This document shows, piece after piece, positions 7,023-30,087 of a stretch of 35,167 nucleotides of DNA. This DNA comes from Lysobacteraceae bacterium (GTDB taxonomy: Bacteria > Pseudomonadota > Gammaproteobacteria > Xanthomonadales > Rhodanobacteraceae): assembly GCA_028866435.1 (NCBI GenBank), contig JAGWIC010000031.1, forward strand, positions 1 through 35,167. Reading direction: 5' to 3'. The translations under genes were made by a program, and so were the position numbers. How positions within the stretch are numbered: position 1 is the first letter of the stretch; each line of letters begins with the position of its first letter. The notes beneath the pieces are model-generated. The model did no database searches, was not told where the DNA came from, and saw only the letters and a program-made list of their open reading frames with translations.

Positions 7023-7099
7023 GCGCCCGTAGCTCAGTTGGATAGAGTACCTGGCTACGAACTAGGTGGTCGGGAGTTCGAATCTCTCCGGGCGCACCA
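7023..7099 (+). tRNA. tRNA-Arg (anticodon ACG)
   Basis: The 77-nt gene has encoded CCA. The acceptor stem GCGCCCG pairs with CGGGCGC, the D arm is GCTC/GAGT, the T arm holds GTTCGAA, and the anticodon loop CTACGAA gives ACG, normally read as ICG after deamination. It has its own promoter and terminator and so forms a separate unit from the four tRNAs that follow. Confidence 0.96.
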
Positions 7100-7110
7100 T
7101 TTTACAAAGT

Positions 7111-7141
7111 GAGGCGGCGTGCTTGCACTCCGCCTCGTTTT
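7111..7141 (+). terminator. Intrinsic terminator after tRNA-Arg
   Basis: GAGGCGG (7111-7117) pairs with CCGCCTC (7130-7136). Inside, GTGC pairs with GCAC around a short loop. The stem is followed by GTTTT at 7137-7141. This separates tRNA-Arg(ACG) from the next tRNA group. Confidence 0.75.
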
Positions 7142-7212
7142 CAAGGCGATCGGTGCTGCTGCGATTGCCCTGGAAACGGCAAGTCTTGATGCATGGTGTG
7201 CTTCGATACGGA

Positions 7213-7241
7213 TTGACTGGGCGAGGCGTCACCCGTAACAT
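7213..7241 (+). promoter_or_regulatory. Sigma-70-type promoter for the Pro-Arg-His-Lys tRNA group
   Basis: TTGACT at 7213-7218 and TAACAT at 7236-7241 are separated by 17 bp. The predicted transcription start is about 35 nt ahead of tRNA-Pro, and the preceding unit is closed by a terminator. Confidence 0.65.
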
Positions 7242-7281
7242 TTGAAGGCTTCGGTGGCGCAAGCGATCGCGAATTCGAAAG

Positions 7282-7358
7282 CGGGGTATAGCTCAGTCTG
7301 GTAGAGCGTTGCGTTTGGGACGCAAAAGTCGGGGGTTCGAATCCCTCTGCCCCGACCA
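7282..7358 (+). tRNA. tRNA-Pro (anticodon TGG)
   Basis: The 77-nt gene has encoded CCA. The acceptor CGGGGTA pairs with TGCCCCG, starting with the C1-G72 pair typical of bacterial proline tRNAs. The anticodon loop TTTGGGA gives TGG, and the T loop is TTCGAAT. It is first in a four-tRNA transcript. Confidence 0.96.
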
Positions 7359-7381
7359 GCGACGTCTTGAAGGTTGTGACT

Positions 7382-7458
7382 GCGCCTGTAGCTCAACCGG
7401 ATAGAGCATCGGCCTTCTAAGCCGACGGTTGCAGGTTCGAGTCCTGTCTGGCGCACCA
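7382..7458 (+). tRNA. tRNA-Arg (anticodon TCT)
   Basis: The 77-nt gene has encoded CCA and the anticodon loop CTTCTAA, reading AGA/AGG codons that are rare in such GC-rich genomes. The acceptor GCGCCTG faces CTGGCGC, leaving a T-T opposition at pair 6-67 while the other six pairs form. D, anticodon and T stems are intact, so the gene appears functional. Confidence 0.94.
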
Positions 7459-7473
7459 GTTTGAAGATTTATG

Positions 7474-7550
7474 GTGGGTGTAGCTCAGCTGGTTAGAGTC
7501 CCGGATTGTGATTCCGGTTGTCGTGGGTTCGAATCCCATCACCCACCCCA
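7474..7550 (+). tRNA. tRNA-His (anticodon GTG)
   Basis: The acceptor GTGGGTG pairs with CACCCAC, the anticodon loop is TTGTGAT, and CCA is encoded. The extra G at 7473 can pair with the discriminator C at 7547, the identity element of histidine tRNAs, so the mature RNA should begin at 7473. Confidence 0.96.
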
Positions 7551-7570
7551 GTTGCATGTCCAAGTTCATT

Positions 7571-7646
<76 letters not shown>

Positions 7647-7647
7647 A

Positions 7648-7687
7648 TAAAAAGACGCCGATCGCTTGCGGTCGGCGTCTTTAGTTT
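7648..7687 (+). terminator. Intrinsic terminator of the tRNA group
   Basis: AAAGACGCCGA at 7651-7661 pairs with TCGGCGTCTTT at 7672-7682, an 11-bp stem with a 10-nt loop that ends in a T-rich tract. It begins 5 nt after the tRNA-Lys CCA. Confidence 0.85.
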
Positions 7688-7746
7688 GCGCCGCGGCCGT
7701 GCCTTGCCCAGCGCGGTTGCCGGGGCCGCCGATGCGGCGATATGGC

Positions 7747-7776
7747 TTGTGCTGCAAGGTCGGGCAACCGTAAAAT
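7747..7776 (+). promoter_or_regulatory. Possible promoter upstream of tRNA-Leu and tig
   Basis: TTGTGC at 7747-7752 and TAAAAT at 7771-7776 are separated by 18 bp. The region lies between the tRNA-Lys terminator and tRNA-Leu. The implied leader of about 130 nt ahead of the tRNA is long, so another start may exist. Confidence 0.4.
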
Positions 7777-7914
7777 GGCCCGCTTCCGTACAAGGGAAGC
7801 AGCAGCTTGGACGGGCAGTGCGCTGATATGGCGTGGGCGCCGCCAGCTGTCGTCTGGCGACCGACGAAGATCGCGGGATGCCGCGTTTGTTGCGCGTGCG
7901 ACGAGGGTGGCAAG

Positions 7915-7999
7915 GCGAGAGTGGCGGAATTGGTAGACGCACCAGATTTAGGTTCTGGCGGTTAACCCCGTGGGGGTTCGAGTCCCCCCCCTCGCACCA
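7915..7999 (+). tRNA. tRNA-Leu (anticodon TAG)
   Basis: The 85-nt class II tRNA has a long variable arm and encoded CCA. The anticodon stem CCAGA/TCTGG encloses the loop TTTAGGT, giving TAG. The acceptor GCGAGAG faces CCCTCGC with one A-C opposition at pair 6-67; the T stem is GGGGG/CCCCC. It ends 88 nt before tig, with no terminator seen between, so tRNA-Leu and tig may share a transcript. Confidence 0.93.
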
Positions 8000-10160: not shown

Positions 10161-10197
10161 CTCGCGACGCATTCAGGTTTATAGCGGGATCCAGAGT

Positions 10198-11490
10198 ATG
10201 AGTGACGACCGGCAGGGGCGTTCCAGCGACAGCGGCAAGATTCTCTATTGCTCCTTCTGTGGCAAGAGCCAGCATGAAGTGCGCAAACTGATCGCGGGTC
10301 CGTCCGTGTTCATTTGCGACGAATGCGTGGAATTGTGCAACGACATCATTCGCGAGGAGCTGGAAGAGAAGGCGGCCTCCGGGCGCACCCACCTGCCCAA
10401 GCCGCGTGAAATCCGCGAGTCGCTGGACCAGTACGTGGTCGGCCAGACCCGCGCCAAGAAGGCGCTGGCGGTGGCCGTGTACAACCACTACAAGCGCATC
10501 GAGTCGCGGCAGAAGAGCGACGAGATCGAACTGGGCAAGTCGAATATCCTGCTGATCGGCCCGACCGGATCGGGCAAGACCCTGCTGGCCGAGACCCTGG
10601 CCCGCCTGCTCAACGTGCCGTTCACGATCGCCGACGCCACCACGCTCACGGAAGCGGGTTATGTCGGCGAGGACGTCGAGAACATCATCCAGAAGCTGCT
10701 GCAGAAGTGCGACTACGATGTCGAGAAAGCGCAGTCGGGCATCGTCTACATCGACGAAATAGACAAGATCTCGCGCAAGAGCGAAAACCCGTCGATCACC
10801 CGTGACGTATCGGGCGAAGGCGTGCAGCAGGCACTGCTGAAGCTGATCGAAGGCACGCTGGCCTCGGTGCCGCCGCAGGGCGGACGCAAGCATCCCCAGC
10901 AGGAATTCCTGCAGGTCGACACCAAGAACATCCTGTTCATCTGCGGTGGCGCGTTTGCCGGTCTGGAGAAGGTCATCCAGCAGCGTTCCGAGAACACCAG
11001 CATCGGTTTTTCGGCCGAGGTGCGCAGCAAGGAGCGTACCGAGAACCTGGGCAAGGTGTTGTCGGATGTGGAGCCGGCCGACCTGGTGCGTTTCGGCCTG
11101 ATTCCCGAGTTCGTCGGCCGGCTGCCGGTGGTGGCGACGCTGGACGAATTGGACGAGGCGGCGTTGGTGAAGATTCTCACTGAGCCCAAGAACGCCGTCA
11201 CCAAGCAGTTCAAGAAGTTGTTCGAGATGGAAGAGGTCGAGCTGGAGTTCAGGCCCGAAGCCCTGCAGGCCATCGCGAAGAAGGCGCTCAAGCGCAAGAC
11301 CGGGGCACGCGGCCTGCGCACCATCCTGGAACAGGTGCTGCTCGACACCATGTACGAGCTGCCCTCGCTGGAGCACGTGAGCAAGGTCGTGGTGGACGAT
11401 GCCGTGATCGATGGCCAGGCCGAGCCGTACCTGATCTACCGCGGCAACCTGCAGCAGCGCGTTGCCAGCGATGGTGGCGACGCCGCCTGA
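10198..11490 (+). CDS. clpX: ATP-dependent Clp protease ATP-binding subunit ClpX
   Basis: ClpX is the AAA+ unfoldase that delivers substrates such as ssrA-tagged proteins to ClpP. The 430 residues contain an N-terminal zinc-binding domain (C18, C21, C40, C43), Walker A GPTGSGKT (121-128), Walker [11 protein letters not shown], the pore motif GYVGED and an IGF loop (TSIGFSAEV) for docking to ClpP. The start [10 protein letters not shown] at ATG 10198 fits the family. In many relatives lon follows; here a long gene-free stretch and a convergent gene follow. Confidence 0.98.
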
Positions 11491-11689
11491 GAGCGCTGTC
11501 GGCGCGGGAGCCGTGCAAGCGGCGTTACGGTTGTCGCCGGGCAGCCGGTCGCAACGCGGTGCAAGGCGGTCCTCCGGCCGCCGCTCGGCATGGTCCTGGG
11601 CCTGCCGATCTCGTGCCACCTCAATCCCAACCGTGCCGGCATGGGCTGTCGCCAGGCACGCATCGCGGTGCCGCCGGTGCTTTGCCGCG

Positions 11690-11864
11690 GGAGTTCTCCA
11701 CAGCAAATGTGCGCGCCTTCTGTACCAGCCTGTGGACAAGCCACGGCATGCCCTTTGCCGACAGGTACTTGCTACGCGTTGGCTAGTTTTTGCGCAGTGA
11801 CGGGCATCGCGCGCGGAGTTCTCCACAGCGGTTGTGGAGAGCGACCGGGGAAGGCTGTGGACAA
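11690..11864. repeat. Duplicated module of inverted DnaA-box-like sites downstream of clpX
   Basis: The 466-bp gap 11491-11956 contains no credible gene. Within it GGAGTTCTCCACAGC occurs at 11690-11704 and 11815-11829, and CTGTGGACAA at 11730-11739 and 11855-11864; both pairs are exactly 125 bp apart. Each module is an inverted pair, TTCTCCACAG against CTGTGGACAA. Relative to the DnaA box TTATCCACA, the 9-mers TTCTCCACA (11694, 11819) and, on the minus strand, TTGTCCACA (11731-11739, 11856-11864) each differ at one base. A fifth weaker site on the minus strand lies at 11833-11841. Sites at 11820-11827 and 11833-11840 also form a perfect 8-bp inverted repeat. The gap lies between 3' ends of convergent genes, so a promoter role is unlikely. 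Confidence 0.6.
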
Positions 11865-11956
11865 CCGGGCTATCTGTCTGATCGTGAAGGCGCTGGTGAC
11901 GGCGTGCGCAGATATTGCGCAGGTCGGTTCGGCACCGCGGCCGGCACCCTCGGTAT

Positions 11957-12520
11957 TCAGATCGGCAACGGGAAAAGCCACAGCGAGGTGGCGCCCAGGC
12001 TGCCGCCGATCGCCATCGCCGCGAGTACGTCACTGGGGTAGTGCAGGCCCAGGATGACGCGGGATGCCGCGACCAGCGAAGAGAACCCGAGCAGCAGCGG
12101 CGCCAGCGACGGATACCACGCTATCGCGACCATGCTGAAGCTCACCGCCTGCAGGGTATGCCCCGACGGGAAGCTGAATTCGTCCAGCGGCGGCACATGG
12201 GCGATCACGCCGGGGCAGGCCCGATAAGGACGGGGGCGACGGGTCCACCGCTTGAGCAGGCGGTAGAGCAGCAATGCAACGAGGCCGGTGACAGCCATGT
12301 GGGCGGCGGCGATCCACCCACGATCGCCGCCCACCACGGCCAGCACGGCCATCAGCGCATACCAGAAGATGCCGTCGCCCAGCCGGCTGACGACACCGAA
12401 GAACAGGCCCACGAGCCGTCGCGCACCCCAGCGGTTGGCGGCCACGCATACACGGCGATCCAGCGCGAAGCGGGGTCCGATGGGAAGCTCAGGCGTGGGC
12501 AGGGGTGGCAAGGTGTTCAT
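11957..12520 (-). CDS. PAP2-superfamily membrane phosphatase
   Basis: The 187-residue membrane protein carries all three PAP2 signature motifs: KRWTRRPRP (about 89-97), PSGH (118-121) and SRVILGLHYPSD (about 153-164), with both catalytic histidines present. Hydrophobic helices flank them. Such enzymes dephosphorylate phosphatidate, undecaprenyl pyrophosphate or lipid A-type substrates; which one cannot be told from sequence. The start lies inside the 3' end of the upstream glycosyltransferase gene (32-nt overlap), so the two are co-transcribed and may act on a shared lipid-linked product. Confidence 0.9.
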   Translation of the reverse strand: MNTLPPLPTPELPIGPRFALDRRVCVAANRWGARRLVGLFFGVVSRLGDGIFWYALMAVLAVVGGDRGWIAAAHMAVTGLVALLLYRLLKRWTRRPRPYRACPGVIAHVPPLDEFSFPSGHTLQAVSFSMVAIAWYPSLAPLLLGFSSLVAASRVILGLHYPSDVLAAMAIGGSLGATSLWLFPLPI

Positions 12521-16384: not shown

Positions 16385-16862
16385 CCAAGGTAGCGACAAC
16401 CGGCACGCGCATCACCCGCATCGGCATGATGCGAAGGGGTTCGTGCGCGAGGTCGAGCGCGCCAGCAGGGAGCGCGGGCTGCGGCTGACCCCGTTGCGCA
16501 AGGAGGTGCTGGAGTTGCTGGCGATCGAACACAAGCCGGTCAAGGCCTACGACCTGCTCGACCGGCTGCGCGAAAAGCATGGCAACGCGGCGCCTCCGAC
16601 GATCTATCGCGCACTCGATTTCCTGCTCGAAAACGGCTTTATCCACAAGCTGGAGTCGATCAACGCCTTCGTGTCCTGCCACCATCCGGCCGAAGCGCAT
16701 CAGGTGCCCTTTCTGATTTGCGATGTCTGCTCCAGTGCGCAGGAAGTCTGCGACGAGCGGGTGGCCGAGCTGATCAAGGCCCAGGCCCGGTCGCTGGGTT
16801 TCCGCCCGCAGGCGCAGACCATCGAGGTGCACGGTGTCTGCAAGCGATGCCATCCGCCCTGA
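16368..16862 (+). CDS. zur: Fur-family repressor, probably the zinc sensor Zur
   Basis: The 164-residue protein has a winged-helix DNA-binding half (LRLTPLRKEVLELL to PTIYRALDFLLENGFIHKL) and a metal-binding half. The latter has C104-H105-H106, C118-x2-C121 and C158-x2-C161, the structural zinc set of Fur-like proteins. An N-terminal His-rich segment (13-20) is also present. The start is GTG 16368, with GTG 16377 in frame as an alternative. Zur rather than Fur is inferred from context: a Zur-type palindrome, a MerC-domain gene and a zinc CDF exporter lie directly downstream. Confidence 0.85.
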   Translation: MNAVSDQGSDNRHAHHPHRHDAKGFVREVERASRERGLRLTPLRKEVLELLAIEHKPVKAYDLLDRLREKHGNAAPPTIYRALDFLLENGFIHKLESINAFVSCHHPAEAHQVPFLICDVCSSAQEVCDERVAELIKAQARSLGFRPQAQTIEVHGVCKRCHPP

Positions 16863-29754: not shown

Positions 29755-30087
29755 ATGTCGAACGGAAAAGAGATCGAATCACGTCGTCGGTTCCTGAAAA
29801 TCGCCGCTGGAACGACGGTGGCGGCCGCCTTCGCCGGCGGTTTGCCGGGTTTGGCGCGTGCTGCCGATCTGCCGCCGTTGAGCGAGAGCGATCCCACGGC
29901 GAAAGCGCTCGGCTATGTGGAGAATGCCGGCAAGACCGCCAATGCGGCGCGCAAGGCCGGCGACGACTGCTCCAACTGCCAGTTCTATTCCGGCGGCCCC
30001 ACCGGTCGCGGTCCGTGCAAGCTGTTCCCGGGCAAGTCGGTCAACGCCAAGGGCTGGTGCATCTCGCATTCGCCGAAGAAGGGCTGA
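29755..30087 (+). CDS. High-potential iron-sulfur protein (HiPIP), Tat-exported
   Basis: The 110-residue precursor has a twin-arginine motif (RRRFLK, 10-15), a hydrophobic stretch and a cleavage-like end GLARA-ADLPP at about 36-38. The mature part has the four cluster cysteines C72, C75, C88 and C102, the HiPIP spacing, with FPGKSVNAKGWC near the end. HiPIPs carry a 4Fe-4S cluster as periplasmic electron carriers to cytochrome oxidases or reaction centres. ATG 29755 is preceded by GGAGG; a TTG at 29749 is in frame. It stands as a single gene with its own terminator. Confidence 0.94.
   Translation: MSNGKEIESRRRFLKIAAGTTVAAAFAGGLPGLARAADLPPLSESDPTAKALGYVENAGKTANAARKAGDDCSNCQFYSGGPTGRGPCKLFPGKSVNAKGWCISHSPKKG

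Follow-up and report, generated by a model that had tools for sequence, protein, structure and literature searches.

The closest described relatives of the locus reported here are the DnaA-reactivating sequences DARS1 and DARS2 of E. coli. Both read 0/+14/+26, with a DnaA box on the plus strand at position 0 and boxes on the minus strand at +14 and +26. The accessible part of PMC5742627 states that the box spacing is identical at DARS1 and DARS2, and the accessible part of PMC10380432 that the head-to-head pair of boxes I and II is essential and characteristic of DARS. According to an excerpt of PMC4245941 the DARS2 core is restricted to the relatives of E. coli among the gamma-proteobacteria, which counts against a DARS-like reading of the locus discussed below. 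E. coli DARS2 has in addition IHF sites flanking the core at its box III end, with IHF-like matches at +93 and +109; Fis sites are a further mark of the DARS2 type. The locus datA likewise combines an IHF site with DnaA boxes in intergenic DNA, and its boxes in E. coli are found at 2178+, 2245+, 2407+ and 2419- of the extracted locus (L116) when two mismatches are allowed. Furthermore, box pairs lying close together, with gaps of 2 or 3 bp, are preferred by E. coli DnaA, as described in the available part of PMC11317965.

The stretch of DNA analysed here (the window, 35,167 bp, from a Rhodanobacter-like genome) contains a convergent gap of 466 bp which holds two modules of 46 bp. In each module box I lies on the plus strand at 0, and the minus strand carries box II (+14), a degenerate box termed III' (+25) and box IV (+37). 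By comparison with the E. coli loci it seems likely that the gap comprises two modules of a DARS-like DnaA-reactivating array which is one helical turn longer. The features of the gap and its neighbours are as follows.

10186..11487, plus strand: clpX (Pfam), the left-hand neighbour in the present assembly; in relatives accD is usual at this place
11694..11739, plus strand: module 1, from box I to box IV; matches TNNTCCACA-N5-TGTG-N19-TGTGGANAA, with homologues in 33 of the 35 other genomes of the genus
11694..11702, plus strand: module 1 box I, TTCTCCACA; mean major-base frequency 0.996 across homologous loci
11708..11716, minus strand: module 1 box II, degenerate, register +14; reads TGTGCGCGC on the plus strand and retains TGTG alone
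11719..11727, minus strand: module 1 putative low-affinity box III', register +25, the best spacer register for a DnaA box in sister genera and f2-type modules
11731..11739, minus strand: module 1 box IV, TTGTCCACA; 0.996 across homologous loci
11740..11797, plus strand: module 1 tail, partly conserved in the column profiles, ending in TTTTGCGCAG
11819..11864, plus strand: module 2, 46 bp, a match to the pattern
11819..11827, plus strand: module 2 box I, TTCTCCACA; 0.920 across homologous loci
11833..11841, minus strand: module 2 box II, CTCTCCACA, facing box I at +14 like its counterparts in DARS1 and DARS2; 0.892
11844..11852, minus strand: module 2 putative low-affinity box III', register +25, from the family-level register score; 0.778 in the genus
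11856..11864, minus strand: module 2 box IV, TTGTCCACA; 0.997 across homologous loci
11865..11922, plus strand: module 2 tail in the same register, diverged further; the homology of many relatives reaches to about 11922
11957..12520, minus strand: PAP2-family phosphatase (PF01569), by synteny the usual right-hand neighbour

An earlier note on this DNA, made from the letters alone, had described four motif copies with a period of 125 bp, and within the window both the motifs and the period are confirmed. The period does not extend to the relatives: in same-genus loci the distance from module to module varies from 113 to 162 bp, and what is constant is the distance of 37 bp which separates the outer boxes of every listed pair. 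The loci of the genus that were read carry one to three modules each. The fifth site of the earlier note, TGTGGAGAG (11833-11841), corresponds to box II of module 2, its counterpart in module 1 retaining the TGTG half alone (11708).

The motif TTNTCCACA is enriched: six copies are present in the window, four of them in the gap, against a mean of 0.29 in shuffled sequences, and none of 100 shuffles reached six. A search of the whole assembly (3.08 Mb, 89.4% complete) for the outer pair TTNTCCACA-(20-45 bp)-TGTGGANAA gave three places, always with an offset of 37 bp and with no match in the control; these are the two modules of the window and one module beside accD on contig C27. The pattern of the I/II pair also has three places in the assembly and none in the control, namely module 2, the C27 module and a core upstream of priA which is treated below. 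Elsewhere in the window there are further single boxes, TTATCCACA at 16639-16647 (plus strand) and TTCTCCACA at 29916-29924 (minus strand), and a cluster of six tRNA genes at 7023-7996.

When the DNA of the gap was searched against the 35 other genomes of the genus, all except G022 and G027 gave a match, and G027 nevertheless has a match to the strict +37 pattern. Outside of the genus one of 24 genomes matched the gap, over 25 bp. The alignment of the 33 homologous loci was drawn from homology and not from the motif, and columns with at least 10 loci were scored. Boxes I and IV are nearly invariant (0.996 and 0.996 in module 1, 0.920 and 0.997 in module 2), whereas the 159 other columns average 0.747, with 40 of them reaching 0.95. 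Boxes II are less conserved (0.764 in module 1 and 0.892 in module 2), and box II of module 1 and both boxes III' (0.778) are barely above the filler in the genus; within box II of module 1 the columns of TGTG reach 0.92, 1.00, 1.00 and 1.00, respectively. Box III' is weak or degenerate in Rhodanobacter itself, and the third box base of the Rhodanobacter modules is rarely A, which is a further difference to DARS1 and DARS2. The module sets used for column profiles, registers, IHF-like sites and arm pairing come from search patterns in which most of the box letters are fixed, and therefore in these sets the free columns alone count as evidence. Independent tests are provided by the homology-based alignment and by the searches with free spacers.

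In the search across the class both spacers were left free (12 x 23 lengths) in 369 genomes of Gammaproteobacteria, five of them from the order of the window. This search yielded 37 matches in 29 genomes and none in the control, and box II is located at +14 in all 37. The last box lies at +26 in 25 of the matches (24 genomes, none of the window's order) and at +37 in 11 (four genomes, all of the window's order); in the remaining match it lies at +34 (G820:C261:5100-5142, L278). Within the window's family, a search with the distance between box I and the last box left free (24-54) matched 100 of 147 genomes, and the control matched in two. Among the matches listed there are 75 distinct places, which by eye fall into +37 (49), +26 (18), +25 (6) and +38 (2), and some of these matches carry an altered box II (TGGGGA). 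One genome of genus g22 (G062, L219) has its outer boxes 38 bp and not 37 bp apart at the place between accD and PAP2. In genera g32, g36 and g22 a second locus with TGGGGA as box II was found, with the last box at +37 (L216, L217, L218) or +25 (L220); it sits between a short-chain dehydrogenase gene and a DegV gene (Pfam, for L216 only) and, judging by the listed coordinates, its distance to the canonical core is about 5-7.5 kb in several genomes. Genera g23 and g44 have 0/+14/+26 cores elsewhere (L205-L215), of which two are doubled at a distance of 174 bp and one at a distance of 3.9 kb, and L205 is adjoined by genes for ETF-alpha and an M48 peptidase.

The strict +37 pattern is present in 72 of the 147 genomes and 15 of the 26 genera of the family and absent from the other 75 genomes. 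Across the order 156 of 398 genomes, from 24 of 98 genera, carry it, all from families f1 and f2 in the table; neither control had a match. With a looser pattern, matches were obtained in 18 of 30 selected genomes, including four Stenotrophomonas, Thermomonas hydrothermalis, R. spathiphylli and Rhodanobacter sp. PCA2. In 12 of the 30 it had no match, among them Lysobacter silvestris, another Thermomonas, Rehaibacterium terrae, Pseudomonas and Azotobacter. In f2-type genomes the modules are scattered over several loci.

The additional box at +25 emerges when the spacer between boxes II and IV is scored for DnaA boxes outside of the genus. Among 22 spacer registers the best is +25 on the minus strand, with 4.25 of 7 consensus letters in 102 sister-genus modules (1.62 after shuffling) and 4.45 of 7 in 47 f2-type modules (shuffled 1.80); the runner-up is +24 on the opposite strand with 3.21 and 3.55, respectively. 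The better-kept free columns of the spacer (28, 30, 32 and 33) are those of TTnTnC. For this scoring the 102 listed sequences of the family were used with genus g1 left out and an identical pair counted once, the f2-type set consisted of 47 of 51 rows after removal of three identical copies and of G047:C1:991776, and the shuffles permuted positions 20-36. With III' in this register, the co-oriented boxes II and III' would be 2 bp apart and III' and IV 3 bp apart, which would resemble the double DnaA box described in the available part of PMC11317965; in contrast to it, III' is degenerate and the opposed box I is without counterpart there.

IHF-like sites (at most one mismatch, +46 to +146) accompany part of the modules: 17 of 76 in the genus, 24 of 58 in other f1 genera and 2 of 27 of the f2 type, with 1.8%, 2.5% and 1.1% in the shuffled sequences. 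In the modules the site, where present, is often found at +65 (15 plus-strand matches in genus modules and 11 in other f1 genera) and thus at another distance than the matches of DARS2. By reading, the two modules of the window have no IHF-like match at +65, including module 1, the tail of which covers this register, and the accD-side module on C27 has one. A match to the ihfA family above the cut-off was obtained in all five of five genomes.

Besides the array the same genome contains a triad with the spacing of E. coli. On contig C79 of G000 from 8832 (L227 1501-1535) two consensus TTATCCACA boxes and a weaker third box form a 0/+14/+26 core upstream of priA. This core shares the opposed I/II pair with the +37 module and differs from it by the E. 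coli spacing and by its place beside a gene start. The canonical-core pattern matched 274 of 299 genomes and 79 of 85 genera of the order without any match in the control; one match is found in the window's genome and in most listed rows of f1 and f2, often two in f9, f10 and f12. A PriA-like sequence is encoded in 27 of 55 stretches around such cores from the order and the class, once about 1.8 kb away; many of these stretches are short, and the class matches G795 and G843 were left out. The 240 bp upstream of E. coli priA contain no such triad. Since the conservation of DARS-like sequences in many proteobacteria is already reported in the accessible part of PMC10380432, we do not claim the canonical core as new.

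The usual order of genes in f1 is accD, the modules, PAP2 and a glycosyltransferase-like gene. Across 45 loci, 37 ORFs fell into the accD cluster and 27 into the PAP2 cluster, the ORFs having been picked by a script that missed some. The names accD (carboxyl transferase domain), glycosyltransferase, gltX, trpA/trpB, tig and clpP are from reading the translations. The position downstream of clpX given in the earlier note holds for the present assembly; in the relatives accD is the usual upstream neighbour. In this assembly one module remains with accD beside lon on C27 and the other two adjoin clpX, thus the break lies between modules. At window 11490-11690 and in L126 the accD/PAP2 and clpX/lon neighbourhoods are recombined within the array. 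Relative to the array clpX has the opposite orientation in G013, G021, G024 and G030 and the same orientation in G001, G026, G032 and G033; in G008 and G035 both are on separate contigs. The neighbourhood of clpX could be due to a rearrangement, for which one inversion could suffice, or to an assembly join. In three Stenotrophomonas loci and one further genome (L184, L198, L201 and L187) the same two neighbour clusters flank the module, by Pfam an ABC transporter and a prephenate-dehydrogenase-like protein in L198. As the locus is syntenic in f1 and has the same flanks in these four loci, a recent mobile element is unlikely.

In four relatives the array is non-coding, away from oriC and at a similar position of the replichore. 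The distance from dnaA is 1.48 Mb in G030, 1.43 Mb in G024, 1.50 Mb in G032 and 1.54 Mb in G026, which corresponds to 0.70, 0.81, 0.77 and 0.75 of the half-genome when the terminus is taken opposite to oriC. For comparison, DARS1 of E. coli lies near 0.66 and DARS2 near 0.41 by their coordinates relative to oriC. With dnaA on another contig (C119) in the window's genome and at these distances in the four relatives, a reading of the array as oriC is not supported.

The array agrees with DARS1 and DARS2 in being intergenic and away from oriC, in the opposed I/II pair at +14, which in module 1 includes a half-box as box II, and in a further box oriented as box II. On the contrary, a box III in this orientation at +26 is not present; the last strong box is one turn further at +37, a degenerate box is found at +25, and up to three modules stand in tandem in the genus loci read. 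Because of the spacing of box III we class the locus as a DARS variant and not as a member of DARS. Of the DnaA loci considered in the earlier note, which had named datA as well as DARS, the DARS kind is best supported by the comparison, namely by the opposed pair at +14 and by the recurrence of the arrangement in two families while the filler diverges. The layout of datA differs: its boxes have other spacings and orientations without an opposed pair at +14, and the array does not reproduce the arrangement of the datA boxes around the IHF site.

Could the boxes simply sequester DnaA, their geometry reflecting cooperative binding without nucleotide exchange? The preference of E. coli DnaA for closely spaced pairs (PMC11317965, in its available part) and the several strong boxes in tandem would suit such a titration sink. 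Nevertheless, all 37 class matches have boxes I and II opposed at exactly +14; such a pair is described as characteristic of DARS (PMC10380432, accessible part) and would not be expected from titration alone, and the datA boxes of E. coli are arranged differently, so that we regard a sink as unlikely. The canonical +26 core upstream of priA, with PriA-like sequences in about half of the core stretches, indicates that such cores can sit at promoters and raises the question of whether the array is a DnaA site controlling the transcription of a neighbour or the local chromosome structure. The array, however, is located between convergent 3' ends, those of accD and PAP2 in the relatives and of clpX and PAP2 in the window, and a scan limited to promoters of the sigma-70 type found none at the locus; this role is therefore quite improbable.

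The duplicated small RNA which the earlier note had offered as an alternative, with the inverted boxes as arms of a hairpin, fits the data poorly and is very unlikely. The arms are largely complementary, and module 2 folds somewhat better than shuffled sequences on both strands (z -1.60 and -1.68), but module 1 does not (z 0.56 and 0.78), the gap has no Rfam match, and sigma-70-like promoters or terminator-like sites were not found. For the most variable arm position within the boxes (2 versus 43), 30% of 162 distinct modules show pairing, where 25% are expected under independence, and position 1, which is variable in f2-type modules, pairs in 71% only. Neither the compensated stem nor the transcript signals of a structured small RNA were thus seen. 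Finally, the assignment of the boxes to DnaA is derived from sequence comparison, and the motif might in principle belong to an unrelated protein whose site resembles DnaA boxes. We consider this extremely unlikely, as the sister genus g29 has consensus TTATCCACA boxes at the same register and the Rhodanobacter dnaA loci carry boxes of the same types, TTATCCACA and TTTTCCACA.

For a DARS-like array we suggest the following mode of action, in analogy to E. coli. ADP-DnaA would assemble on the module, in which the head-to-head pair I/II has the distance known from DARS and the co-oriented boxes II, III' and IV would follow one another with gaps of 2 and 3 bp. With this arrangement the module could seat about four DnaA protomers and thus probably one more than the DARS core of E. 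coli. The head-to-head contact at I/II would loosen ADP, and the freed DnaA would rebind ATP, so that more ATP-DnaA would be available before initiation and its timing might be affected. It is conceivable, and we put it forward tentatively, that two families have evolved a second class of DnaA-reactivating sequences beside the canonical core, one turn longer, with four protomers and in tandem or at multiple loci, the number of modules setting the dose of ATP-DnaA.

With regard to novelty, the earlier note had considered the locus possibly undescribed. DARS-like sequences as such are already known from many proteobacteria (PMC10380432, accessible part), and the features that look new are the spacing of +37 and the arrangement in tandem. 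Our literature search, which covered few subscription papers, found no reports on DARS in Xanthomonas or Stenotrophomonas and none on DnaA boxes in Rhodanobacter. A natural variant which has the same opposed pair, an extra helical turn and a variable copy number would show which geometry matters for reactivation. The DARS biochemistry found in the literature is that of E. coli, and the variant would open up cell-cycle control in the order of the window, where the array may help to set the start of replication in Rhodanobacter and its relatives.
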